A stretch of 50,831 nt of DNA. Origin: a virus. Within the stretch, counting starts at the first letter, position 1. Every line of letters starts with the position of its first letter. This document shows positions 1 to 41,620 of this stretch, one piece after another. A program made the position numbers and the translations under genes. Location of the stretch: IMG/VR virus record IMGVR_UViG_3300000101_000007, positions 56,356-107,186 of that record. One strand, 5' to 3'. The notes beneath the pieces were generated by a model. The model had not been told where the DNA came from. It made no database searches and was given only the letters and a program-made list of their open reading frames with translations.

Positions 1-260
1 CTCTGTTCTTTCCATTCATCTAATGAATAGTGTTTTCGCATTACAGTAATCATTTTGTGTTCTTGTAATACTTTAGCCATTTCAAATGTACCAACACCGT
101 CCATGTTACTTGACATGATTGGTACTCCGGTCCATTCGTTACCGTAATGAAATTTAAATGTACGAGTTAAGTCAACATCACGTCTGCTTTCTAATTTAGA
201 ACGCTTCGGCTTAAACAGTACATCCTTGTAATCTAGTTTAATATCTTGTTCGATTCGCAT
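1..260 (-). CDS. guaC: GMP reductase, N-terminal part (runs off left edge)
   Basis: Only the first 86 codons are present; the gene continues beyond base 1. The start MRIEQDIKLDYKDVLFKPKR and the following NMDGVGTFEMA and MRKHYS stretches match the beginning of GuaC, a TIM-barrel enzyme of the IMPDH/GMPR family that reduces GMP to IMP with NADPH. The catalytic Cys loop lies outside the window. It begins 9 bases after the exonuclease gene at 270-854 and shares its strand, so both probably use the promoter at 894-922. With NrdA/NrdB and PRPP synthetase elsewhere in the window it fits phage remodelling of purine pools. IMP dehydrogenase is the alternative, but the N-terminus is of the GuaC type. 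Confidence 0.85.
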   Translation of the reverse strand, partial: MRIEQDIKLDYKDVLFKPKRSKLESRRDVDLTRTFKFHYGNEWTGVPIMSSNMDGVGTFEMAKVLQEHKMITVMRKHYSLDEWKEQ

Positions 261-269
261 ATTTGACAC

Positions 270-9085: not shown

Positions 9086-9159
9086 TGGCAGGCGAACAAG
9101 GAATCGAACCTCAAGCTACGGTTTTGGAGACCGCCGTGTTACCACTACACCATTCACCC
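9086..9159 (-). tRNA. tRNA-Trp (CCA anticodon), encoded 3' CCA
   Basis: The minus strand folds as a cloverleaf: acceptor GGGTGAA/TTCGCCT, D stem GTGT/ACAC, anticodon stem GCGGT/ACCGT with loop CTCCAAA (anticodon CCA), T stem TGAGG/CCTTG with loop TTCGATT, discriminator G and templated CCA at 9086-9088. It lies directly between the tmRNA and the Nfu-like gene. Confidence 0.93.
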
Positions 9160-9177
9160 TTTGTCAATAAAAGTGCA

Positions 9178-9495
9178 ACTTTTCTGTTGCCAGGTAAGTT
9201 GCCAACCCCGTTACCTAGTTAACTAGGCTGCAAGAGCAAAATTATCGTTTGCGTCTATAAAGTTGCTTGATTTACGGTCATCGCCTACCGGTAACTCCAC
9301 GTTCTCTCATACATCAGTCGATCCTAGTTCGCCCCCATCATAAACACACTACTTGCAGTATCTTCCTCTGCGTAACCTCAGCATTAGAGGTAACTTAGTT
9401 TATTCGTAGCCTTGCCACTTCTAGTTCAAAGTAGTGTGCTTATGGTGGAGGCGCGGGGTACCGCCCCCCGGTCCTGTCTGTCGTTGATTGGCTTC
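9178..9495 (-). ncRNA. ssrA: Permuted two-piece tmRNA, tag ANDNFALAA
   Basis: Transcript order is acceptor piece, intervening loop, coding piece, as in alphaproteobacterial permuted ssrA. The acceptor piece (to 9443) ends with T stem CGGGG/CCCCG, strand CGCCTCC, A and templated CCA. The coding piece begins at 9336 with GGGGGCG, which pairs fully with CGCCTCC. A GCA resume codon at 9250-9252 opens the tag frame encoding ANDNFALAA, with stop TAG at 9223-9225. The intervening segment is flanked by 19-base arms that pair with G.U wobbles and extend the acceptor stem. The T loop (GGCGGTA) is atypical. The outer ends are approximate. Confidence 0.92.
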
Positions 9496-9510
9496 AACGT
9501 TACATGTATA

Positions 9511-9539
9511 TTTATACTACCATTGTAACAGTTTGTCAA
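9511..9539 (-). promoter_or_regulatory. Sigma-70 promoter for tmRNA-tRNA-nfu unit
   Basis: Minus strand TTGACA (9534-9539), 17-base spacer, TATAAA (9511-9516). The same -10 is also a perfect TATAAATA late-type motif (9509-9516), so the unit could be read early and late. Confidence 0.85.
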
Positions 9540-9552
9540 CCTTTTTTTTAAA

Positions 9553-9639
9553 TTAATTTCTACCCATGTGTTTAGGGCCAGTATCTTGCGATAACCAATC
9601 TAAAAGTTTAAACCAACGTTTGCTGATACGGATCAACAT
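9553..9639 (-). CDS. Small ORF overlapping the end of the Rieske-type gene
   Basis: 28 aa starting at an ATG inside the 3' end of the oxygenase gene, reading MLIRISKRWFKLLDWLSQDT then GPKHMGRN. Composition is protein-like (basic and aromatic, amphipathic), and the frame ends just before the tmRNA promoter. No homology can be claimed. It could be chance. Confidence 0.4.
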   Translation of the reverse strand: MLIRISKRWFKLLDWLSQDTGPKHMGRN

Positions 9640-10678
9640 CTAAGTACTTGCCCCATTCGGTATAGTAATGACGCATACCTACTTCATCATGTATAGTACC
9701 GTTCTCATGACGTCCGTGTAGTATGTTTCTACGTTCAGTACCCGGAGCCATCGAAACACCTTGTCCAGTAACACCTAGCAAGTCTTCGTGCAAGTTACGT
9801 CCAAACGGTCCCCATATAGTGTTGTGATGATCTATACGTTGCTTACGTTCTTCAGGTGTGTCTTTTAACAAGCCGTATCCTCTAAACTCTATAAGCACAC
9901 TGTTAGGACCTAGTGGAGTAACACTATCACTACGATAAGCACTTCCACGTAGGTTAAAGTTAAAGCCTGGAAACAAGTCTACCATGTACCATTGGTTGGG
10001 CGGCAGGGTAGGAAAACTTAATGCTTCTCTATCTCCTGCGCCTTCATATTCACCATAGTTTACTGTGAAACTGCTTACGTTTACATGTCCGTTATCGAAC
10101 GCAATGTTCTTACGTGCAAAGTATTCATCATTAAATCCTGTCACACGATTAAAGTAATGCATAAAGTCGTGATAGAATTCACTGTTAGTGTCGTGCCATA
10201 GTTTGTAGTTGGTTGGAATGATTGCTTTATGATAGTGAAATACTTCTAATTCTTCAGTATCAATAGCACCGGCAATACAATCAAATGCACCTGCGGTCCA
10301 TTCTTCTACATTCATCTTTGGATTAGGATCTAGTGTTACCCATACCATACCCCCGTGCTTAACCTCACAGTATAGTTCAGGCTCACTGGTTACAATAGGT
10401 GCTTTTAGTTTGCCAGAAACTTGATATTGCGAATCATATATTCTATAAGCCTTGACTCTATCACCTGCATTTACTATAAGGATATTTTGAAACGCAATTT
10501 GCGATGTTCGATAATCGCCTTCGTTTCTTATTTCACTCTTGTGGATAACAGGTACCCATACTTTAGCAAAGATATTTTTAATCTCTTGTTCGTATATTTC
10601 TTGACTAGAATATATTTCGCTACTTACTGCTTCTACTGGTGGTACTGACAACCAACTCTTGTGGTTACGTGGTGGCAT
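9608..10678 (-). CDS. Rieske-type ring-hydroxylating oxygenase alpha subunit lacking the Rieske ligands
   Basis: 356 aa from the ATG at 10678, which has GGAG 8 bases upstream. The C-terminal catalytic domain is typical: NYKLWHDTNSEFYHDFMHYF carries putative iron His ligands, then HEDLLGVTGQG for the Asp ligand, and the family tail DEVGMRHYYTEWGKY. In the N-terminal domain, where CxH and CxxH should bind the 2Fe-2S cluster, sequence passes straight from VKAYRIYDSQYQ to VSGKLKAPIV; the cluster hairpins are absent. His spacing at the iron site is HxxxH instead of the usual HxxxxH. Substrate unknown. No reductase or ferredoxin gene is adjacent. Confidence 0.75.
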   Translation of the reverse strand: MPPRNHKSWLSVPPVEAVSSEIYSSQEIYEQEIKNIFAKVWVPVIHKSEIRNEGDYRTSQIAFQNILIVNAGDRVKAYRIYDSQYQVSGKLKAPIVTSEPELYCEVKHGGMVWVTLDPNPKMNVEEWTAGAFDCIAGAIDTEELEVFHYHKAIIPTNYKLWHDTNSEFYHDFMHYFNRVTGFNDEYFARKNIAFDNGHVNVSSFTVNYGEYEGAGDREALSFPTLPPNQWYMVDLFPGFNFNLRGSAYRSDSVTPLGPNSVLIEFRGYGLLKDTPEERKQRIDHHNTIWGPFGRNLHEDLLGVTGQGVSMAPGTERRNILHGRHENGTIHDEVGMRHYYTEWGKYLDVDPYQQTLV

Positions 10679-10785
10679 AAACATTTCTCCATTTATATAT
10701 AATAACATATACACACTGTTATTTAATATATAATAGCATATAAAATGAAGAAAGTCTAATTGATTGTTCCTATGAGGTAATAGTC

Positions 10786-13628: not shown

Positions 13629-14732
13629 CTAAAGTTGGAAACCTTCGAATGTATTTTCATCAACATCTTGCTTAACTCCGCCGATAATATAACTTTCGAT
13701 TTCAGTTTCCTGTGGTGCAACTTGTAAGCCTGAGCTAGATAGCCAGTGTTGTGTCCAAGGTAAAGGATTTGTTGTTAACGGGCGATCAAATATTGGATCC
13801 ATGCCTAATGCTTTAAGTCTTTTGTTAGCAATAAACTCTACATATGCATGTAACAAGTTTGCATTAAGTCCTATGATAGAACCTTTTTCAAACAAGTAGT
13901 CTGCCCATTTCTTTTCTTCCTCAACACAAGTACGCCATAGTTCATAAGATTCTTCTTTGCATTCTTTTGCAATCTTAACAAAGTCTGGATCATCGTCACC
14001 TTTGGCCCAATGCTTAAGAATATGTGTTGATAAGTTTAAGTGCGTTGCTTCGTCACGTGCAATTAATGAAATAATCTTTGCAGAACCTTCCATCTTCTTT
14101 AGCTCGCCAAATGCAAACGTACATGCAAATGAAACATAAAAACGTAAACCTTCTAAAATGTTTACAGTCATCATTGCTTTGTACAATTGCTTTTTAACTT
14201 CGTACATGTTACCTTTACCTTTGTACATGTAGTCTGTTACAATATTATGAAACTTATCGTATTCTGCGGATACACTTTCTGCTCTTGCAATAATTTGCTC
14301 ATCATCTAAAATAGTATCAAACACTTCTGCTGGATCAGCATATACATTTTTTACAATGTGTGTGTAAGAACGACTATGGATAGTTTCTTGGAAGTCCCAT
14401 GCTACAATACAACTTTCTAATTCTGGATTAGAACAGTATGGTAAGAACATAAGACAAGGTCCACGTCCTTGTACACTATCAAGTAGGGTTTGATATTTTA
14501 AGTTTGATGTAAAGATATGTTTCTGTGCATCTGTAAATTCTGCATAGTCACCTCTATCTTTCTGTAAGGAGACTTCTTCAGGTCTCCAAAAATAACCTAA
14601 CATAGTCTGGTTAAGTTTGTCATACTCCGGATAACGAAATACGTCATAACGTTGAGTGTTTTGATCTTCTCCAAAGAACATATACTGCTTTGTGAAGTCT
14701 ACCTTATTACGATTAAAAACTGTTTTGCTCAC
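13629..14732 (-). CDS. nrdB: Class Ia ribonucleotide reductase, beta subunit
   Basis: 367 aa from GTG at 14732, with GAGG 11 bases upstream. A TTG at 14783 inside nrdA is an unlikely alternative, since homology to NrdB begins at the GTG. Diiron and radical residues are visible: LDSVQGRGP (Asp), FQETIHSRSYTHI (ExxH plus the radical Tyr), FAFGEL and IARDEATHL. The C-terminus ENTFEGFQL is the tail that docks on NrdA. It generates the tyrosyl radical needed for dNTP synthesis. It follows nrdA directly. Confidence 0.95.
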   Translation of the reverse strand: MSKTVFNRNKVDFTKQYMFFGEDQNTQRYDVFRYPEYDKLNQTMLGYFWRPEEVSLQKDRGDYAEFTDAQKHIFTSNLKYQTLLDSVQGRGPCLMFLPYCSNPELESCIVAWDFQETIHSRSYTHIVKNVYADPAEVFDTILDDEQIIARAESVSAEYDKFHNIVTDYMYKGKGNMYEVKKQLYKAMMTVNILEGLRFYVSFACTFAFGELKKMEGSAKIISLIARDEATHLNLSTHILKHWAKGDDDPDFVKIAKECKEESYELWRTCVEEEKKWADYLFEKGSIIGLNANLLHAYVEFIANKRLKALGMDPIFDRPLTTNPLPWTQHWLSSSGLQVAPQETEIESYIIGGVKQDVDENTFEGFQL

Positions 14733-14748
14733 TGTGTGTGTTTCCTCT

Positions 14749-17079
14749 TTATATGTTACACGCTTCGCATTCTTCACCTTCAAGGTCTTCTACTGGTTGT
14801 AGATCACCGTTCATGTGTGTATGCCCATTCATTTCGACTTCTGCTGCTGCTTCTTTTGTTTCATCATCACCTTTAAAGTCATAGGTGTTTTGATAATAGC
14901 TTGTCTTCCAACCTAACTTATAAGTTGTCAACATGTCTTTCATCATTACGCTTAACGGAACTTCATTGTTCTCAAATTGCGTAGGGTTGTATGACCAATT
15001 ACCACTAATGGATTGATCAAAGAATTTTTGCATTACTGCTACAATGTTAATATACCCATCATTGTTTGGCATATCCCAAAGTAAAGTATAGAAGTTCTTT
15101 AGTTGACTATACTGTGGAACAACCTGTTTAAGAGGCCCTTTTTTACTTTTCTTAACGGACAAGTATCCTCTAGGTGGCTCAATTCCATTTGTTGCGTTCG
15201 ACACAACGGAACTGCTCTCCGAAGGCATTTGTGCAGACAATGTGCTGTGCCTAAGGCCGTGTAATTTGATGTCCTTGCGTAAAGTAGTCCAATCATACTG
15301 TAATTTTGTCTTTACAACTCCGTCTATATCTTTTTTGTATGTATCAATCGGCAATATGCCGTCCGCATATTTAGTACGATCGAAGTATTCACATGCACCA
15401 CGTTCTTCAGCAAGTGTGTTACTTGCAACTAACAAGTAGTATTGGAACGCTTCTGTAAGCTCGTGTACTAATGCCCATGCTTTAGGATCATCATACTTAA
15501 CTTTATTCTTTGCAAGATAGTGTGCAAGTCCAATGTAACCTATACCTAATGAGCGTCTTGCTTTTGTACTAATCTCTGCTGCCTTAACAGGATAACCTTG
15601 ATAGTCAATAATTTCTTCTAATGCTCTAACAGCAAGTTCACATAGTGGCTCAAGCTCTTCTAGTTTATTAATTAAACCTACGTTAATAGCACTTAAAATA
15701 CATAATGCAATTTCGCCTTCTTCATCATCAATGTGTTGAATTGGTTTAGTTGGCAGTGTAATCTCTTGACACAAGTTACTCATGTACACAGGATCTTTGA
15801 AAGAACTGTGTGAGTTGCTGTGGTCAACATTCATAATATAGATACGTCCTGTTTCAGCACGTTCTTTTAACATGTTACCAAACAATTCTTTTGCGCTTAC
15901 TGTTTTCTTTCTAATAGATGTTTTGCGTTCTGCTTTTTCATATACATCTTTGAACAAGTCGTTGTCGCCTGAGTAGAAAGCATCATAAACTTCTGGTACT
16001 TCATGTGGCGAGAAAAGAGTTATGTCTTTATTGGTCAAAAGCCTTTCATAAAATAATTTGTTAATTTGAATAGAATAATCTAATCTACGTACACGATTGT
16101 CTTCAGTACCCTTATTGTTTTTCAACACAAGGATGTCATCAATCTCGTAATGCCAAATAGGAAAATGAGTCGTTGCTGACCCACCACGTACACCATTCTG
16201 TGTACAACTTCTTACTGTGGATTCATATACTTTTAGAAATGGGATAACACCAGTATGTGCTACTTCTCCACCTCTTATTTTTGAGTTAATCGCTCTCGTA
16301 CGACCCGAGTTAATACCAATGCCTGCTCGCTGAGCAATGTAATAACCAATAGCGGAGTTGCTACTAAAAATACTAGACAAAGTATCGTCAACATCAACCA
16401 ATACACAACTAGCAAACTGACGGATTGGAGTACGAACTCCAGCCATGACTGGCGTCGGGATATTGATTTTAAAAAGGGAGGTCGCATCGTAATATTTCTT
16501 TACATAATTTAATCTTGTATCTTTAGGATAGTTTGCAAACAACGTTGCCGCAATCATCATATACATGAACTGCGGAGTTTCGTAGATGTCGCCATTACTT
16601 CTATCCTGACACAAATACTTATCCACAACTTGACGAAGACCTGCATACGTAAATTCTTCATTACGATCATGCTTTAGCCAGGTATTCATTTTCTTTAGTT
16701 CAGTATCGGTATATTGATCTTTAATTGCACTATCATAGACTCCACGCTCTATGTTACGATCAATTATAGTACTGAGAGAATCATGTTCATACTTTGTATA
16801 TACTTTTTTATGTAGTCCATATAACAACAATCTTGCTGCTGCATATTGATAATTAGGATTTTCTAACGATATAAGATCGTTTGCGCTCTTAATTAATATT
16901 TCTTGGATTTCTTCTGATGTCATGCCGTCATAAAACTGTAAATCAGCGTTCATCTCGATCTGCGAACTACTCACTCCAGCAAGACCAGCACAAGCTTCTT
17001 CAACAACAAAGTGCATTTTATCTAAATCTAAAATCTCTCTGCTGCCGTTTCTTTTTGTGATGTATATATCTTTGCTCAT
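14749..17079 (-). CDS. nrdA: Class Ia ribonucleotide reductase, alpha subunit
   Basis: 776 aa, close to the usual 760. An N-terminal ATP-cone (KRNGSREILDLDKMHFVVEE) is followed by the catalytic barrel with FASCVLVDV, the thiyl-radical loop SNLCQEITLP and EIALCILSA; all three active-site Cys are intact. The mobile tail ends in ECEAC, which glutaredoxin reduces. It converts NDPs to dNDPs. A 177-base leader upstream contains a small hairpin and candidate promoters. Operon order is nrdA-nrdB-small ORF-grx. Confidence 0.97.
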   Translation of the reverse strand: MSKDIYITKRNGSREILDLDKMHFVVEEACAGLAGVSSSQIEMNADLQFYDGMTSEEIQEILIKSANDLISLENPNYQYAAARLLLYGLHKKVYTKYEHDSLSTIIDRNIERGVYDSAIKDQYTDTELKKMNTWLKHDRNEEFTYAGLRQVVDKYLCQDRSNGDIYETPQFMYMMIAATLFANYPKDTRLNYVKKYYDATSLFKINIPTPVMAGVRTPIRQFASCVLVDVDDTLSSIFSSNSAIGYYIAQRAGIGINSGRTRAINSKIRGGEVAHTGVIPFLKVYESTVRSCTQNGVRGGSATTHFPIWHYEIDDILVLKNNKGTEDNRVRRLDYSIQINKLFYERLLTNKDITLFSPHEVPEVYDAFYSGDNDLFKDVYEKAERKTSIRKKTVSAKELFGNMLKERAETGRIYIMNVDHSNSHSSFKDPVYMSNLCQEITLPTKPIQHIDDEEGEIALCILSAINVGLINKLEELEPLCELAVRALEEIIDYQGYPVKAAEISTKARRSLGIGYIGLAHYLAKNKVKYDDPKAWALVHELTEAFQYYLLVASNTLAEERGACEYFDRTKYADGILPIDTYKKDIDGVVKTKLQYDWTTLRKDIKLHGLRHSTLSAQMPSESSSVVSNATNGIEPPRGYLSVKKSKKGPLKQVVPQYSQLKNFYTLLWDMPNNDGYINIVAVMQKFFDQSISGNWSYNPTQFENNEVPLSVMMKDMLTTYKLGWKTSYYQNTYDFKGDDETKEAAAEVEMNGHTHMNGDLQPVEDLEGEECEACNI

Positions 17080-28154: not shown

Positions 28155-28246
28155 AAAACTACACAAATATAATTTCCTAATTGACGGGATGAAGATATAC
28201 AAGACGGCATAGCCAAAACAATAGAAAGAAATTAAATTTGAAGGAA

Positions 28247-28278
28247 AGAAAGGTAGCCAGGTTGCTGCCTTTCTTTTT
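28247..28278 (+). terminator. Rho-independent terminator before heme operon
   Basis: AGAAAGGTAGC / GCTGCCTTTCT, 11 pairs with one T.G, 6-base loop, then TTTTT. It insulates hemF from the upstream promoter. Confidence 0.9.
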
Positions 28279-28287
28279 GAGTACAAC

Positions 28288-28299: not shown

Positions 28300-29118
28300 A
28301 TGAACACATTGTATACTGAATGGTTTGCACAACTTGCGCAAATTATAGAAGATAACATCAATGAAGTAGAAGCTAGATTCACACCTAAAGATCCTATTAA
28401 AATGGAAGAAGGTGGACATTCAAGCAGAGAGGGATGGACTCAAACACACAAAGTTATACGTGGAAATGTATTTGAAAAAGGTACAGTAAATTACTCGTGT
28501 GTTACTGGAGAGTTTGATCCAAGATTCGCAAAAGAGATTCCAGGTACAACTGACGAGAACAGAGAGTACTATGCTACAGGTATAAGTGTAGTATTGCACC
28601 CTACTAATCCTTGGGTACCAGCAATGCACTTCAACACAAGATACCTTAAGACACATGACAAAGAATGGTTTGGTGGTGGTATGGATCTAACTCCTTGCTT
28701 AGATGACGAGCAGTTTAAAGTAAAGTATCACCAAGAGCTTAAAAAGGTTTGTAGTGAGTATGATGCAACTTGGTACGATAAGTTTAGCAAAGCATGTGAT
28801 GAATACTTTTACTTGCCACACAGAAAAGAAACAAGAGGTATTGGAGGTTTGTTCTTCGAATATCATTCGCCAGAGGACATGGACTTTAAATTTGTAGAAC
28901 GTATGGGCATTAAGTTTGCAGATATAATGAGAACAACTGCAATTAACTACATGAACAACAACTACACAGACGAACATAAAAATATACAAAAGATCAAACG
29001 TGGACGATATGTAGAGTTTAACTTGTTATACGATCGTGGAACTAAGTTTGGTTTTAAAACAGGTGGTAACATGGAAGCAATCCTAATGAGCTTACCGCCA
29101 GATGTGAGTTGGCCGTGA
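28300..29118 (+). CDS. hemF: Oxygen-dependent coproporphyrinogen III oxidase, C-terminally short
   Basis: 272 aa. Diagnostic blocks are WFGGGMDLTPCLDDEQ, HRKETRGIGGLFFEYHSPED and GRYVEFNLLYDRGTKFGFKT followed by GGNMEAILMSLPP. It converts coproporphyrinogen III to protoporphyrinogen IX with O2. The family normally runs about 35 residues past the SLPP motif; this one stops at PPDVSWP. It is first in a tight operon hemF-peptide-hemC-hemE-hemB. There is no Shine-Dalgarno before the ATG, and a TTAAATAC motif sits just upstream. Confidence 0.95.
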   Translation: MNTLYTEWFAQLAQIIEDNINEVEARFTPKDPIKMEEGGHSSREGWTQTHKVIRGNVFEKGTVNYSCVTGEFDPRFAKEIPGTTDENREYYATGISVVLHPTNPWVPAMHFNTRYLKTHDKEWFGGGMDLTPCLDDEQFKVKYHQELKKVCSEYDATWYDKFSKACDEYFYLPHRKETRGIGGLFFEYHSPEDMDFKFVERMGIKFADIMRTTAINYMNNNYTDEHKNIQKIKRGRYVEFNLLYDRGTKFGFKTGGNMEAILMSLPPDVSWP

Positions 29119-29192
29119 ACATTGGGATAGGTGCATTAACTGCTGCTATCTTAGCATTCATTGCTTGGGTCATAAGGAAGGTTAGAAAATGA
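29115..29192 (+). CDS. 25-aa membrane peptide inside heme operon
   Basis: GTG start overlapping the hemF stop (GTGA) and a stop overlapping the hemC start (ATGA), so the frame fits the gap exactly. After four residues it is one hydrophobic helix (GALTAAILAFIAWVI) followed by a basic end (RKVRK), the positive-inside topology of a single-pass inner-membrane peptide. A good Shine-Dalgarno for hemC (AAGGAAGG) lies inside it. It might tether heme enzymes to the membrane or couple translation. Confidence 0.6.
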   Translation: MNIGIGALTAAILAFIAWVIRKVRK

Positions 29193-30010
29193 AGATAGGC
29201 GTAAGAGGAAGTAAACTAGCATTACAGTATGCAAGTAGAGCAGCGGCTCTAATAAGCGACCCAGAGATTGTTACAATAAAAACAGAAGCAGAAATTAATC
29301 CAGACACGCCTATATTGGAAATGGGCGGCAAGGGTGTATTTTGTAAAGCCATTGAGCAGAAGTTATTAGATAACGAAATTGATATTGCTGTTCACAGTTT
29401 AAAAGATTTACCAAGAGACTCAGATGATGTTCTTGAGATATCAGCAGTACTAACTCGTAGCGATCCTAGAGACTGCGTAATAGGCGATCCTAACAAACCC
29501 GGCGCCAAGATAGGAACAGGCAGTCCACGCAGAACTGCACAACTAAAAAAGTTATATCCAGATGCAGAGATAGTTTCTATTAGAGGAAATATTGACACAC
29601 GTATTTCTAAAGTAGAAAGTGGACAGTATGATGCTATTGTACTTGCTGTTGCAGGACTAGAAGCACTAGGATTAGAAAACAAGATAACAAAGATATTTAA
29701 CTTTGACGAAATGCTGCCAGCAGTTGGGCAAGGTGTTATTGCACTACAAACAAGAAAGAAAAGTTCCGCAAGTTATTTGTTAAGCAGTTCATCTGATGCA
29801 GACACATATAAAGGAGCAATGGCTGAACGCAAGATGCTTGAAGTTATAGATGGCGACTGCCATACTGCTGTTGGTTGTATATCTAGTGTTGTTGGAGACT
29901 GTCTAATGATTAGAGCCTACAACTTTGAAACAGATAAGTACAGTGAAGTAATAGGTAAGAAAGAAAACTATCTAGAACTTGGTGAACAACTAGGAACGAA
30001 ACTTATATGA
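29189..30010 (+). CDS. hemC: Hydroxymethylbilane synthase (porphobilinogen deaminase)
   Basis: 273 aa, compared with about 310 in bacteria. MKIGVRGSKLALQYASRA, KGVFCKAIEQKLLDNEIDIA followed by VHSLKDLP, IGTGSPRRTAQLKKLYPDAE and IRGNIDTRISKVESGQYDAI are all conserved. The dipyrromethane cofactor Cys is present in VIDGDCHTAVGC. The C-terminal third domain is shortened. It polymerises four porphobilinogens into hydroxymethylbilane. It overlaps hemE by ATGA. Confidence 0.96.
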   Translation: MKIGVRGSKLALQYASRAAALISDPEIVTIKTEAEINPDTPILEMGGKGVFCKAIEQKLLDNEIDIAVHSLKDLPRDSDDVLEISAVLTRSDPRDCVIGDPNKPGAKIGTGSPRRTAQLKKLYPDAEIVSIRGNIDTRISKVESGQYDAIVLAVAGLEALGLENKITKIFNFDEMLPAVGQGVIALQTRKKSSASYLLSSSSDADTYKGAMAERKMLEVIDGDCHTAVGCISSVVGDCLMIRAYNFETDKYSEVIGKKENYLELGEQLGTKLI

Positions 30011-30984
30011 ATGAAAAATTTAAAAATGCCTGCGATAGGGTAGAACAGTCTTGTCCTCCGATTTGGATGATGCGACAGGCTGGAAGATACCAAGCACCCT
30101 ATATGGAGATGAAAGAGAAGTTTACCTTTGAACAAATGTGTAAGTTACCTAGGGTAGCTGCCGATGTAGCAATGCTACCAATTGATCAATTTGATTTTGA
30201 TATTGCAATACTGTTTAGCGACATACTATTTCCTATTGAGGGACTAGGAGTTCCTTTAAAGTTTGCACCAGGGCCACAGTTTGAATGGTACATCAACGAA
30301 GACAACTATAAAGATCACAAAGACGTTTCACGTGCAGTAGAACACATGCAGTTTCAAAAGGCTGCTGTTTCTTCAACTAGAGAACTGTTAAGCAAAAAGA
30401 AAAGCCTAATAGGATTTGTAGGCGGCCCGTGGACACTGTTAAACTATGCTACAGGTAAAAAGCCTAATATGGATTTAAAATGGAAGGCAGCATACATGGA
30501 AGAAGTTATTGTTCCTGTGCTATCACGTAACATACAACTGCAACTAGAAGCAGGTGCAGAGAAAGTTATGATACTTGATAGTGGTGTAGCCAACATGAGT
30601 GAGTCTTTTTTTAAAACACATTACGTTAATCTATTACAACCACTAAAACACGCTGATACAGGTTACTACACACAACATCTAAATCACAAGTGTTTGCCTA
30701 CACTGTATAGAATGGGCTGGGCAGGATTGGGTATTGATAGTACAGTTGATATACATAGAACATTTAAGAAATATCAAGAAGGATTTATACAAGGCAACTT
30801 CGATGAGAAGTTAATGATGACTCCTGAACTATACTTAAAGAAAGAAATATCAGAATGGCTTGACAGTATGGAGCGTATTGATAGAACTGGTTGGATATGT
30901 GGGCTAGGACATGGCATACATAAAGAAACACCAGAGGACAATGTAAAACTATTTGTAGACATGGTTAGGGAAAGATTCGAATGA
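30007..30984 (+). CDS. hemE: Uroporphyrinogen decarboxylase
   Basis: 325 aa. The signature PPIWMMRQAGRYQAPYMEMK is followed by FDFDIAILFSDILFPIEGLG with the catalytic Asp, and GFVGGPWTLLNYATG. It is a full (beta/alpha)8 enzyme that decarboxylates uroporphyrinogen III to coproporphyrinogen III. AGGA sits 10-12 bases before the ATG. ATGA overlaps join it to hemC and hemB. Confidence 0.96.
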   Translation: MNEKFKNACDRVEQSCPPIWMMRQAGRYQAPYMEMKEKFTFEQMCKLPRVAADVAMLPIDQFDFDIAILFSDILFPIEGLGVPLKFAPGPQFEWYINEDNYKDHKDVSRAVEHMQFQKAAVSSTRELLSKKKSLIGFVGGPWTLLNYATGKKPNMDLKWKAAYMEEVIVPVLSRNIQLQLEAGAEKVMILDSGVANMSESFFKTHYVNLLQPLKHADTGYYTQHLNHKCLPTLYRMGWAGLGIDSTVDIHRTFKKYQEGFIQGNFDEKLMMTPELYLKKEISEWLDSMERIDRTGWICGLGHGIHKETPEDNVKLFVDMVRERFE

Positions 30985-31829
30985 GGCTGATACAACCTTA
31001 TTTTATTAATAATCAAAATAACGGCGATGACTGGTTACATTCATCTAAGCAATGTGTTCTTGGCAACGATAATCATCCTTGGTCAGTCAAAGGCGCAGTA
31101 GATACTATTGGTAGAGATATCATGTTAGGTGTCAAAGACATCTTAATATTTGTTATGCCAGACAAGACGGAATCCCCAAATTGGGAGTTAAACAAACGTG
31201 TTGTTAGCGAAATCAAAGCAGCACACGGAGATAAAGTAAACTTACATGTTGATATATGTTTGTGTTCTACTACGCTAGATGGGCATTGTTGCTATCCTGA
31301 GGACATGAATAAAACGTACGATCAACTACTTCAACAAGCAACTGTTGTACACGAAGCAGGAGCAGATGTATTAGCACCCAGTGACTGTCAAGACAACACT
31401 GTGATAGTACTTAAAGAAAACTTAAAAGCAAAAGTAATGAGCTATTCAACAAAGTTTAGGTCAGCATTCTATGATGGGTTTAGACAAACTATTGGTGTTG
31501 AAAAAGGAATACACAGAGGTTATCAATTAGATGTAACTGATAGAGAACTTGCAATTTGTCGTAGTCAAAAATATCACAGAAACGGTGCTGACATGTTAAT
31601 GGTAAAGCCTGGCATGACTAGCATTGATCTTATTATTCCTATTAAAGAAGCAACAGGATATTCTGTTCCTGTAGGTGTTTATCAAACAAGTGGCGAGTAC
31701 ATTGGTTTACAACGTAATGGTTGGATGGTTCCTGAACTGTTAAAAGAAACACATGATGTTTTTAAACGTGCTGGTGCTTCTTATATGATTACTTACGGTG
31801 CTAGGGAATTATTTAAACAAAAAGACTAG
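30981..31829 (+). CDS. hemB: Porphobilinogen synthase (zinc-type), N-terminally short
   Basis: 282 aa against about 325. Both Schiff-base lysines are present: MSYSTKFRSAFYDGF and MLMVKPGMTSIDLI. The metal loop VDICLCSTTLDGHCC has three Cys, so it is of the Zn2+-dependent type; many alphaproteobacteria use the Asp-rich Mg2+ type. The N-terminal arm that builds the octamer (the RPRR-containing region) is missing, so its oligomeric state may differ. It condenses two 5-aminolevulinates. It is last in the operon and overlaps a convergent gene by 4 bases. Confidence 0.95.
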   Translation: MRLIQPYFINNQNNGDDWLHSSKQCVLGNDNHPWSVKGAVDTIGRDIMLGVKDILIFVMPDKTESPNWELNKRVVSEIKAAHGDKVNLHVDICLCSTTLDGHCCYPEDMNKTYDQLLQQATVVHEAGADVLAPSDCQDNTVIVLKENLKAKVMSYSTKFRSAFYDGFRQTIGVEKGIHRGYQLDVTDRELAICRSQKYHRNGADMLMVKPGMTSIDLIIPIKEATGYSVPVGVYQTSGEYIGLQRNGWMVPELLKETHDVFKRAGASYMITYGARELFKQKD

Positions 31830-35027: not shown

Positions 35028-36092
35028 TTACGCAAATGTTTTTGCTATTTCTCTTTCTGCTTCGGTTGCAAAGTTTTTATCCCAATTGTCTAAATGCTTT
35101 TTCATAAAGCTATTAAACACAGGAGGTACTAATGCTAACGCAAAGAGTGCAAAGTAACCTACACCTGTATTAGGTGCACCTACTTCATCTAGTTCCCAGA
35201 AGTGTGTTTCACCCCTGTCATGATGATCAGCCTGGCGACCAATCTCTATGAAGAACCAGCTTGTGAATAATGTTGAGTTATCCCAGGAATGTCTATAGTC
35301 TATCGGTTCGCTTTTAACACGAATTAAACCATAGTGTTCTAGATAGTTAAGTGCTTCAAGTTCGAAGTTTGATATTAACCAAACAAGTCCGACACATGCG
35401 ACACCTAACCAACCACCTGCAAAGAAAAACAATGCAAGTGTAGGTACACTCATCATGTAACCTCTTATCCATCTATTACTTACGGATAAGAAAGGTTTCT
35501 GTAAACGTTTCAATCTACCTCTCTCCATTTCAAACAAGAACTTAGATTGTCCTAAGTGTGATTTGATAAAGTGTGAATATAGATCACGTCCACGAGGTGC
35601 AGTTGCAGGATCATCTTCACTTGCTAATTCCAAGTGATGATTGTACACATGAGCATAACAGAAATGTGCTGAACCTGATAGTCCCATCATCCAACGGCTT
35701 ATTACAAATGCAATGCCTTTGGTGTGAGATAGTTCATGCCCATAGATTATGCCTATGCCTGCAAATATACCTGTTGATAGTGTAGCACCTAAAAGTTCTG
35801 CACCTGCCATACCATTATAGATCTGATATGCTAGTGCCAACTGAAGTGCAACAAAGACTGGTAACATCAAATACATTACTGTATTCTGTAACCAGGGGAT
35901 CCCTAAGGTCTCTCCATTCTCATCTAATGCTCCACGAGTCTGAACACTAATAAGAGTATCAAGTATAATGCCTACTCCCAATAAGCCTACACCTGTCCAT
36001 GCCCATGCTCCACCTGCCAACACTCCTGCGAGTGTAACAAGTATTAACAATGGCGCAATGAAGTACCTTATGTTTACGAGAAGTTTACTCAT
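35028..36092 (-). CDS. AlkB-like membrane alkane hydroxylase / fatty-acid desaturase family
   Basis: 354 aa, about six membrane helices. The AlkB histidine pattern is complete: GHELSH (HELxH box), HVYNHH (second box), NYLEHYGLIR (the HYG motif specific to alkane hydroxylases) and RQADHHDRGETHF (third box). It is a non-haem diiron enzyme that hydroxylates terminal carbons using O2 and rubredoxin; no rubredoxin gene is visible. Xylene monooxygenase-type membrane oxygenases share some boxes, but NYxEHYG favours AlkB. Both sigma-70 and TATAAATA elements lie upstream. Confidence 0.88.
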   Translation of the reverse strand: MSKLLVNIRYFIAPLLILVTLAGVLAGGAWAWTGVGLLGVGIILDTLISVQTRGALDENGETLGIPWLQNTVMYLMLPVFVALQLALAYQIYNGMAGAELLGATLSTGIFAGIGIIYGHELSHTKGIAFVISRWMMGLSGSAHFCYAHVYNHHLELASEDDPATAPRGRDLYSHFIKSHLGQSKFLFEMERGRLKRLQKPFLSVSNRWIRGYMMSVPTLALFFFAGGWLGVACVGLVWLISNFELEALNYLEHYGLIRVKSEPIDYRHSWDNSTLFTSWFFIEIGRQADHHDRGETHFWELDEVGAPNTGVGYFALFALALVPPVFNSFMKKHLDNWDKNFATEAEREIAKTFA

Positions 36093-39366: not shown

Positions 39367-39540
39367 ATGTACAACATAATCAAATTCTTTAAAGATTGGG
39401 CTTATGAATACAATAGCCTAATGGACGAATTGAGAAAAGACGGATGGTATTGCTGCCATCATTCAATGGGAACACTATTTTATCATGATAAACAAAGAAC
39501 CAATAAACAAACTACTAAAAAACCTAAAAGACAGCGGTAA
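39367..39540 (+). CDS. 57-aa protein overlapping the hemA start
   Basis: Starts [20 protein letters not shown] and contains WYCCHHSMG, a Cys-Cys-His-His cluster that could bind metal or haem, then a lysine-rich tail. It overlaps hemA by 56 bases in another frame. The late-type motif at 39355-39362 points to this ATG first, so hemA may depend on its translation. Not recognised as a known family. Confidence 0.6.
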
Positions 39541-40690
39541 CTACAGGGTATTCAATGACATTCTAAGAGAAAGGGGCGAGTTCCCTAGAGCTATCTGGTA
39601 TGGACCATATAATATTAAAAACATTACTAATTGGTGCAGCAATGATTACTTGGGCATGGGACAGAACAAAGTTGTTATAGACGCAATGCATACTGCCCTA
39701 GAACAAACAGGATCAGGTTCAGGAGGCACACGTAACATAGGTGGCACAAGCCACTATCACGTTGCGCTGGAGCATGAACTTAGTACATTACATAACAAAG
39801 CAAAGTCCTTGCTGTTTACATCTGCATATGTTGCAAACGAATGGACACTTATTTCATTAAAGAAAATATTCCCTAACATTGTATTTTTAAGCGACAGTAA
39901 GAATCATGCTTCATTGATACAAGGTATTATACATAGTAAAGCAGAAAAACAAGTGTGGCAACACAACGACATGGATCAACTAGAAGAACTATGTGCTAAT
40001 GCTGTACTTGCTAATCAAACTCCTTGTATTGTATTTGAAAGTGTTTACTCTATGGACGGAGACATTTCTCCAATGGAACAGATATGTAATATTGCAGACA
40101 AGTATAAGGCAATAACATACATTGACGAAGTACATGCTGTTGGCCTTTATGGCGAACACGGAGGCGGCTGGACGGAGAAACTAGGACTACAAAACCGTAT
40201 TGATATAATCAATGGCACACTTGGAAAGGCCTTTGGAGTTCAAGGTGGATACATTGCTGCCGATGCAGACGTTGTTGACGCTATTCGTTCAGTTGCTTCT
40301 GGTTTTATCTTTACGACTAGTATGAGTCCAGTTTCATGTGCAGGCGCAATGGCTGCAATCAAATATTTAAAAGACCACAACGAAGTTAGAGATAGCCATC
40401 AAAAACAAGCGAACAAACTTAAAGAAAGATTAACAGCAAATGGAATACAAGTAATGGAATGTTCAACTACACACATTGTTCCTGTGCTTGTAGGAGATGC
40501 TAAGAAATGTAAGTCGATGAGTGATATGCTTATTGACGAATATGATATCTATGTACAGCCAATTAACTATCCAACAGTAGAAGAAGGTACAGAACGTTTA
40601 AGGTTTGCACCTACTCCGTATCATGATGATAAAATGATTGAGGATTTAGTTATTGCTCTAAAGGCTGTGTTTGCTCGTCACCAGGATTAA
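39485..40690 (+). CDS. hemA: 5-Aminolevulinate synthase (ALAS)
   Basis: 401 aa, full length. Diagnostic blocks: [63 protein letters not shown] with the PLP lysine, [10 protein letters not shown] and [20 protein letters not shown]. It condenses glycine and succinyl-CoA to 5-aminolevulinate, the C4 route typical of alphaproteobacteria and mitochondria. It starts the pathway whose later steps are at 28.3-31.8 kb. No clear Shine-Dalgarno. The 3' end overlaps the convergent cupin gene by 41 bases. Confidence 0.97.
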
Positions 40691-41033
40691 TTCTAAACTG
40701 ATCTTCTTCATAGTCTGGTGTTCCTGATTCAAAGATAATTGAATTATGATCTAACGATTCTAATTGATGTGGAGTCATTTCAGCAATGTCAATAGTGTTG
40801 CCTTCTTTAATAACTTGTTCTCTGCTTTGCCCTGTCTTAATATCAATAAATGTAATCTTAAACTTACCTGAATTAACAAACCAACTCTTACGTCTAACCT
40901 TGTGTAACATCATTGCAGTTTTCTTATTAGGATGTTCGAACACTAATAATTTGCCTGCATAAGATTCATTAGATGCCCAGCTGAGCTCCATGCCCCAGGC
41001 TGTTTGTTTACTACCTTGTGAAACTATCTTCAT
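40650..41033 (-). CDS. Cupin-domain protein
   Basis: 127 aa, a single cupin of the mannose-6-phosphate isomerase type: [40 protein letters not shown] and [20 protein letters not shown], with a degenerate metal site. Comparable phage proteins may bind sugars. It overlaps clpP by ATGA and the 3' end of hemA by 41 bases. Confidence 0.8.
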
Positions 41034-41620
41034 GGACGCTTATCAATAATTTGATCAACCAACCCATAGTCTACTGCTTCTTGGGCAGTCATAAAGTTAT
41101 CACGCTCCATGTCGTTAGTTAGTTCATCGAATGTTTTGCCTGCACTGTTATGTTTTTCGTAGATACCTGTAAGCTCTTTCTTAATTTTTATAATTTCTTC
41201 TACTTGGATTTGCATGTCTGTTGCTTGTCCTCTAGCACCGCCACTTGGTTGATGGATCATGTGCCTTGCGTTTGGTAACATATAACGTTTACCTTCTGCA
41301 CCTGATTGTGCAAGTAGACTGCCCATGCTACACGCTTGGCCTGTAACGTATGTTGCAATGCTTGGCTTAATAAACTGCATTGTGTCATAGATACTCATGC
41401 CGGCAGTTACAACACCGCCTGGACTATTAATAAACAATGAGATATCTTTATCTGAATCTTCTGACTCTAAGAATAACAACTGTGCAACAATAAGGTTTGC
41501 ACTTACATCTTCAACAGGACCATTGAGCATTATTACCCTGTCCTTTAATAATCTACTGTAGATATCATAAGCTCGTTCGCCCTTGCTTGTCGATTCAACT
41601 ACCATTGGTACTAATGCCAT
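41030..41620 (-). CDS. clpP: ClpP protease subunit
   Basis: 196 aa, normal length. [20 protein letters not shown] holds the nucleophile Ser98, [18 protein letters not shown] holds His123, and [19 protein letters not shown] holds Asp174. It forms the proteolytic barrel with host ClpX/ClpA; no ATPase subunit is in the window. A phage ClpP may redirect host proteolysis, process virion proteins, or act on ssrA-tagged proteins made by the phage tmRNA, whose tag ends in LAA. Confidence 0.95.

Follow-up and report, generated by a model that had tools for sequence, protein, structure and literature searches.

Why would a phage encode four consecutive enzymes of tetrapyrrole biosynthesis, and which product would they serve? 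The question arises from a 50,831-bp stretch of DNA, bases 56,356–107,186 of the 107,186-bp IMG/VR virus record IMGVR_UViG_3300000101_000007 (henceforth the window), where hemF, a short open reading frame (ORF), hemC, hemE and hemB follow one another on the plus strand at 28300–31829. Stop and start codons overlap as GTGA at the hemF/peptide junction and as ATGA at the peptide/hemC, hemC/hemE and hemE/hemB junctions; coordinates, strand and overlaps all agree with the original prediction of a phage-encoded heme operon. The interpretation that we somewhat favor is that the operon belongs to an auxiliary cassette of T4-like marine phages of alphaproteobacteria, in which the hem genes would feed the phage's own heme oxygenase (HemO) and PcyX-type bilin reductase and thereby the formation of a phycobilin.

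The four enzymes fall into the families predicted for them, and Pfam matches, retained residues and structural models agree on this point. HemF matches the coproporphyrinogen oxidase family PF01218 (272 bits), clears the NCBIfam equivalog cut-off of NF003727 (299.6 vs 297), and has 3e8j as its best PDB match (8e-53). HemC matches the Pfam porphobilinogen deaminase family (219 bits), clears the equivalog cut-off of TIGR00212 (269 bits vs 164), and its alignment to PDB entry 5h6o (2e-47) preserves Cys224, which binds the dipyrromethane cofactor, and the catalytic Asp73. HemE (PF01208 URO-D, 209 bits) retains the MRQAGRY motif and the active-site Asp72 in FSDIL, and HemB (PF00490 ALAD, 180 bits, from profile position 26) retains a C-x-C-x7-C metal site as well as the Schiff-base lysines K158 and K209, which align with K205 and K260 of the P. 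aeruginosa enzyme. Because HemE and HemB both lie below their NCBIfam equivalog cut-offs, they were modeled with AlphaFold, using alignments with viral and bacterial relatives. The HemE model (predicted local distance difference test, pLDDT, 94) has 24 top PDB matches that are all uroporphyrinogen decarboxylases, with human UROD first (template modeling score, TM, 0.90), and the 50 top matches of the HemB model (pLDDT 82) are all porphobilinogen synthases. These predicted structures support the assignment of both proteins to the respective families.

As predicted for a hemA gene some 8 kb away on the same strand, a genuine 5-aminolevulinate synthase (ALAS) of the Shemin pathway is encoded 7.7 kb downstream of the operon. 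The protein scores 572 bits against TIGR01821 (cut-off 339), on which ground the alternative identities KBL and BioF were rejected, and the pyridoxal phosphate-binding lysine is retained in an NGTLGKAFG motif. In the alignment to 2bwn, the two residues responsible for heme feedback in the R. capsulatus enzyme are replaced, His342 by Lys and Cys400 by His. Since the intervening genes are mostly on the minus strand, ALAS forms a separate transcription unit outside the operon. For HemF, HemC, HemE, HemB and ALAS alike, we infer enzyme activity from the sequence.

Profile searches of the whole record place genes for a heme oxygenase and a ferredoxin-dependent bilin reductase, overlapping by 8 bases, about 1.8 kb before the window. 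The reductase is by far closest to PcyX (5owg, 265 bits, vs 59 bits for PcyA), shares 51% identity with its counterpart in Pelagibacter phage Mosig, and would probably yield phycoerythrobilin (PEB) from biliverdin. Seven enzymes on the route from glycine and succinyl-CoA to phycobilin, namely ALAS, HemB, HemC, HemE, HemF, HemO and PcyX, are present in this one record. For the suggestion that the phage supplies a process in need of heme, its own heme oxygenase and PcyX-type reductase now offer a concrete candidate; the companion suggestion, that tetrapyrrole supply limits infection, is conjectural. The features are collected in the Table.

Table. Features of the window and of the adjoining part of the record (window positions unless marked as record positions).
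Feature	Position	Strand	Evidence or remark
Heme oxygenase (hemO)	record 53961-54506	-	PF01126 profile search of whole record
PcyX-type ferredoxin-dependent bilin reductase	record 53270-53968	-	PF05996 profile search; PcyX 5owg
IMPDH/GMP-reductase gene, 5' part	1..269 (record 55506-56624)	-	Pfam
tRNA-Trp, next to tmRNA	9086-9159		ARAGORN
Alphaproteobacterial-type permuted transfer-messenger RNA (tmRNA)	9172..9554	-	Rfam RF01849, 125.9 bits vs 50
nrdA, nrdB, class Ia ribonucleotide reductase (RNR) of T4-like marine phages	13629..17079	-	PHROGs, tblastn
Strong hairpin resembling a terminator, with U-run, upstream of hemF (20 bases before start codon)	28244..28279	+	Minimum free energy -20.6 kcal/mol, z -2.7
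hemF, oxygen-dependent coproporphyrinogen III oxidase, 272 aa	28300..29118	+	PF01218, NF003727
25-codon ORF, small single-pass hydrophobic peptide with basic C-terminus	29115..29192	+	Overlaps hemF and hemC
hemC, hydroxymethylbilane synthase, 273 aa	29189..30010	+	TIGR00212, PDB 5h6o
hemE, uroporphyrinogen decarboxylase, 325 aa	30007..30984	+	PF01208, AlphaFold model
hemB, porphobilinogen synthase, 282 aa	30981..31829	+	PF00490, AlphaFold model
Fatty acid desaturase	35028..36092	-	PF00487, 100 bits
ALAS (5-aminolevulinate synthase, Shemin pathway)	39485..40690	+	TIGR01821, alignment to 2bwn

Which steps are left to the host was addressed with a census of 50 hem-bearing viral records, 27 with hemF and 23 without. 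HemD was detected in none of the 50, the present record included, whereas 12 of 14 control genomes were positive; the expectation that the genes cover the route to protoporphyrinogen IX except HemD is thus borne out. Ferrochelatase, HemJ and HemY were likewise not found on the record, and HemY was absent from all ten records searched for it (HemG was not searched). Ferrochelatase occurs in 2/50 records and HemJ in 2/50, heme oxygenase in eight, bilin reductase in eight, and ALAS above cut-off in 15, and ALAS, hemF and bilin genes co-occur in three (G000, G009 and G018). Two sister phages also encode HemJ, about 1.5 kb upstream of hemO. In G013, hemJ, hemO and the bilin reductase gene lie within 4.1 kb (contig L368, 6248-10355) near SSB- and UvsX-like genes (named from sequence reading), and the same phage has hemE-hemF-hemC.

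During infection, the phage ALAS, HemB, HemC, HemE and HemF would drive glycine and succinyl-CoA to protoporphyrinogen IX, by way of 5-aminolevulinate, porphobilinogen, hydroxymethylbilane, uroporphyrinogen III (formed by the host HemD) and coproporphyrinogen III. A host oxidase and ferrochelatase would then convert protoporphyrinogen IX to heme; the HemD, protoporphyrinogen oxidase and ferrochelatase steps must come from the host because they were not found on the phage record. The heme would be opened to biliverdin by the phage heme oxygenase and reduced further by the PcyX-type enzyme to a phycobilin, probably PEB. HemE and HemF are specific to the heme branch, which means that the gene set does not aim at siroheme or cobalamin. 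Because heme synthesis would consume the same iron that HemO returns, the joined pathway would have a bilin (or carbon monoxide, CO) as its useful product, and not iron. Given that the genome also has hemO and pcyX, this joined route is the most economical reading, and its flux, co-expression, product and benefit are what we infer from the genes present. The fuller version of it, in which seven phage enzymes equip a non-photosynthetic alphaproteobacterium with nearly all of a de novo bilin pathway, to which the host adds only HemD, protoporphyrinogen oxidase and ferrochelatase, is held with slightly less than even confidence. The infected cells would probably be SAR11-like.

The hem cassette is widespread in phages and not unique to this record. 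The arrangement hemF-peptide-hemC-hemE-hemB is found complete, between the same phage genes, in 11 further viral contigs that come from many samples, and the operon is therefore neither a chance arrangement nor an assembly artefact. Across these contigs, HemE is 87–95% and HemB 80–93% identical, and ratios of nonsynonymous to synonymous substitution (dN/dS) of 0.05–0.22 relative to the window reveal purifying selection on all five enzymes. In a sister lineage (L036–L038 and L114), the cassette is hemF-hemC-hemE and lacks both hemB and the peptide; three of the four members also encode ALAS, and L038 has the window's phosphoribosyl pyrophosphate synthetase downstream of its cassette. About 40 contigs outside the window's clade hold at least two of the genes, in orders such as hemE-hemF-hemC, hemE-hemC and hemF-hemC. 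HemB was found only in the window's clade (7/50 records). In wider scans, 189 viral contigs were matched by HemC, 87 by HemE, 28 by HemF and 496 by ALAS. Among the annotated phages of INPHARED, HemE, HemF, HemC and ALAS match only distant paralogues or bacterial sequences that were deposited as phages, which means that none of the isolates there has these genes. Two further T4-like phages (L012 and L191) have a lone hemE between kdsA- and kdsB-like genes, together with cupin- and queuosine-precursor-transporter-like genes, and NifU/IscU-like Fe-S scaffold proteins are encoded near phage heme genes in L249 (8056-8445) and L042 (7615-7995), all named from sequence reading.

Maximum-likelihood trees, whose choice of bacterial sequences carries a bias from the search patterns, place the main phage HemE sequences (30 dereplicated rows) in one clade with 98% support in the Shimodaira–Hasegawa-like approximate likelihood ratio test (SH-aLRT), and HemF (99%) and HemC (95%) each in a phage-only clade. 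The phage HemE clade adjoins HemE of SAR86 and of streamlined alphaproteobacteria. The HemF tree separates the window from L036, whereas the HemE and HemC trees place the two close together, a disagreement that suggests that individual genes have passed from one cassette to another. In a second phage group (L261, L136 and L165), the HemE is an independent one, of ordinary alphaproteobacterial type. One of its members, L261 (contig 3300009103_001286), combines this hemE with ALAS, hemF and ferrochelatase in a second independent assembly of heme genes, and also has DnaK-, NadA- and ferredoxin-like genes (names from sequence reading). That L261 might be a bacterial contig, given its hemF, hemH and alphaproteobacterial-type hemE, was considered and rejected, as it shares genes (YqgE/AlgH-like) with the window family.

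With respect to the host, the permuted tmRNA of the window is of the alphaproteobacterial type, which is an indicator and not proof, and the RNR is nearest to that of Mosig, a phage of Candidatus Pelagibacter ubique. From the tmRNA type and the kinship with Mosig, an alphaproteobacterial host is likely, and a SAR11 host is plausible. When 385 genomes from a single alphaproteobacterial class were searched for the tmRNA, only short matches were returned, the best of them in a 1.3-Mb genome.

The argument presupposes that the contig is neither a piece of bacterial chromosome nor a chimeric assembly, the outcome named in the original prediction as fatal to it and one to which we give next to no credence. 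The 107-kb record itself has no match to the major capsid protein Gp23 (PF07068), so that by this marker it is not identified as T4-like, and a scan of ten proteins encoded in its first 50 kb gave almost no phage-specific functions. The capsid gene was thus not found on the contig, but a T4-type Gp23 gene is present on three contigs with sister cassettes. Moreover, T4-like replication, tail and RNR genes surround the operon in the window, with PHROGs matches to a baseplate hub/tail lysozyme, an exonuclease and an ATP-dependent ligase, and NrdA is 70% identical to its nearest relative in Mosig and 68–69% identical to those of cyanomyophages (tblastn); the replication and RNR genes are those of a T4-like (pelagimyophage-like) phage. 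The 11 syntenic viral contigs repeat the operon together with its flanks, and the sister records G009, G010, G013 and G022 have hem cassettes plus hemO and bilin reductase. Cellular-type metabolic genes sit here between phage genes in a virus record, as in an auxiliary metabolic cassette, and the predicted phage origin is supported by these observations.

If the phage origin is accepted, the main rival to a bilin product is heme itself, supplied to respiratory cytochromes and other heme enzymes of the host during shutdown of host transcription, with hemO–pcyX as an unrelated cassette. In many sister phages with hemC or hemE, neither hemO nor bilin reductase was detected, the ferrochelatase and HemJ genes of two records each represent steps toward heme, and Wegner et al. 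(PMC11480375) argue likewise in their treatment of phage ALAS. However, a heme-degrading or bilin gene accompanies the cassette in the window's record and eight others, and would oppose a rise in heme, which leaves this alternative doubtful although deserving of serious consideration. Heme turnover by HemO also releases Fe(II) and CO, and iron freed for the phage, or CO, could be the purpose. Such an iron role of phage hemO is discussed in PMC11480375, but de novo heme synthesis spends the same iron and no net gain results; a bilin reductase is encoded too, and we regard this explanation as very unlikely. Equally little weight is given to proteins that do not serve flux, but have drifted in role, generate toxic porphyrin intermediates or drain succinyl-CoA. 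HemE and HemB lie under their equivalog cut-offs, and the lack of HemD in all 50 records means that excess hydroxymethylbilane could close to uroporphyrinogen I; on the other hand, catalytic residues are retained under strong purifying selection, and HemE and HemF jointly indicate the heme branch. For the route to phycobilin that we prefer, heme oxygenase and/or bilin reductase genes are found in 8/27 records with hemF vs 1/23 without (p = 0.03), and ALAS in 12/27 vs 3/23 (p = 0.03), but both tests ignore shared descent and contig ends and use fragments, which counts against this route together with several other points. The hemO–pcyX pair lies 30 kb from the operon on the opposite strand, and co-expression is presumed; no bilin acceptor was identified among those of the record's proteins that were scanned; and many contigs have only hemE or hemC, perhaps for ordinary heme supply. 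HemE scores 211 bits vs the 303 of TIGR01464, its phage clade being divergent, and HemB scores 171 bits vs the 297 of NF006762 and lacks the N-terminal arm (the match begins at profile position 31). Finally, the host is deduced from the tmRNA and the kinship with Mosig and not observed, and the GC content, 38%, is above that known for SAR11 and its phages.

Within the operon, the 70 bases that separate hemF and hemC contain the 25-codon ORF, which begins in the hemF stop and finishes in the hemC start. The encoded peptide, VNIGIGALTAAILAFIAWVIRKVRK, is a short hydrophobic helix with a basic tail. The ORF is seen in five lineages with an invariant hydrophobic core, is absent from the L038 lineage, and is nearly unchanged in nucleotides where the flanking genes are 81–93% identical; its 75 bases are identical in the window and in L018, two lineages whose hemF and hemC genes have diverged by about 0.6 synonymous changes per site. 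A one-base deletion in L016 alters only the C-terminus. Because conservation of the nucleotides exceeds what a short protein needs, it suggests that the RNA matters too, or that the tract was recently exchanged. As guesses, the peptide might anchor the pathway in the membrane or serve to couple translation. A promoter scan gave fewer sites than expected by chance.

The IMPDH/GMP-reductase gene is adjoined, outside the window, by genes for Hsp20, a ClpS-like protein (record 54543-54872), the heme oxygenase and the bilin reductase. A ClpP-type protease (the head maturation protease PHROG) is encoded at window 41030-41620 and, with the ClpS-like protein, Hsp20 and the alphaproteobacterial tmRNA, makes up a phage proteolysis set. 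Window 9608-10714 weakly resembles ring-hydroxylating (Rieske) oxygenases in their catalytic domain (26.8 bits vs a cut-off of 24.9), and record 43843-51306 (L004) encodes a CHASE2-adenylate cyclase, curlin repeats, and FecR and CsgG domains.

The reason why non-cyanobacterial phages carry hemO and pcyX is debated, and the published proposals are a bilin for an unknown acceptor, or iron. Heme synthesis genes on the same phage argue against iron and for a bilin or a wider tetrapyrrole program; if this is correct, the infected cell would make phycobilin from glycine and succinyl-CoA. More generally, some lineages of central tetrapyrrole enzymes are divergent and confined to phages; they are widespread in ocean viromes and their members vary in the steps carried, yet HemD was detected in none of the 50 records tested.

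Wegner et al. (2024, PMC11480375) name hemO and bilin reductases as what had earlier been known of tetrapyrrole genes in phages, and they added a phage ALAS with hemO and pcyA/X. The valaS/hemO/pcyA-X loci of that paper resemble the present record in having a phage ALAS without heme-feedback residues, hemO with a bilin reductase, and pelagiphage-like contigs, and for one pelagiphage scaffold a fatty acid desaturase is named, as in the window. The main text names no hemB, hemC or hemF, whereas here an operon encodes the middle steps of the pathway. Ferrochelatase is known in podovirus-type pelagiphages (PMC9599517). For the pelagimyophage PMP-MAVG-4, one sentence in Zaragoza-Solas et al. (2020, PMC7029224) reports coproporphyrinogen oxidase, porphobilinogen deaminase and GMP reductase, and a formate dehydrogenase is mentioned as well. 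The first three genes are also found on our record and, as a GMP-reductase-type gene is among them, PMP-MAVG-4 is probably a relative of the window's phage; its sequence was not found by nucleotide search in the phage collection. In PMC7029224, hemE, hemB, an operon, ALAS and a hemO–pcyX link are not described. The claim that no phage operon covering this much of the route had been described therefore holds for the operon in the open-access papers searched, but ALAS (2024, PMC11480375) and hemF with hemC (2020, PMC7029224) precede it in what those papers report. No paper on phage hemE, hemB, the operon or the hemO–pcyX link was found in the open-access literature, in which many journals are missing, and these four appear to be new.

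In Mosig (EXVC030M), a heme oxygenase gene stands beside a PcyX-type reductase gene as here (51% identity; RNR 70%), but tblastn returned no relatives there for HemF, HemC, HemE or ALAS, all of which the present record encodes. The chromosomal hemC-hemB-hemE-hemH-hemF clusters of streamlined marine bacteria (L269, L270, L273 and SAR86 L263) pack the same genes, with hemA nearby. Unlike the phage operon, these clusters include hemH and a longer hemC that is apparently fused to hemD, and their proteins are distant from those of the phages (HemE 30–45% identical) and fall in separate clades. The record described here carries the fullest phage tetrapyrrole set seen in this analysis.

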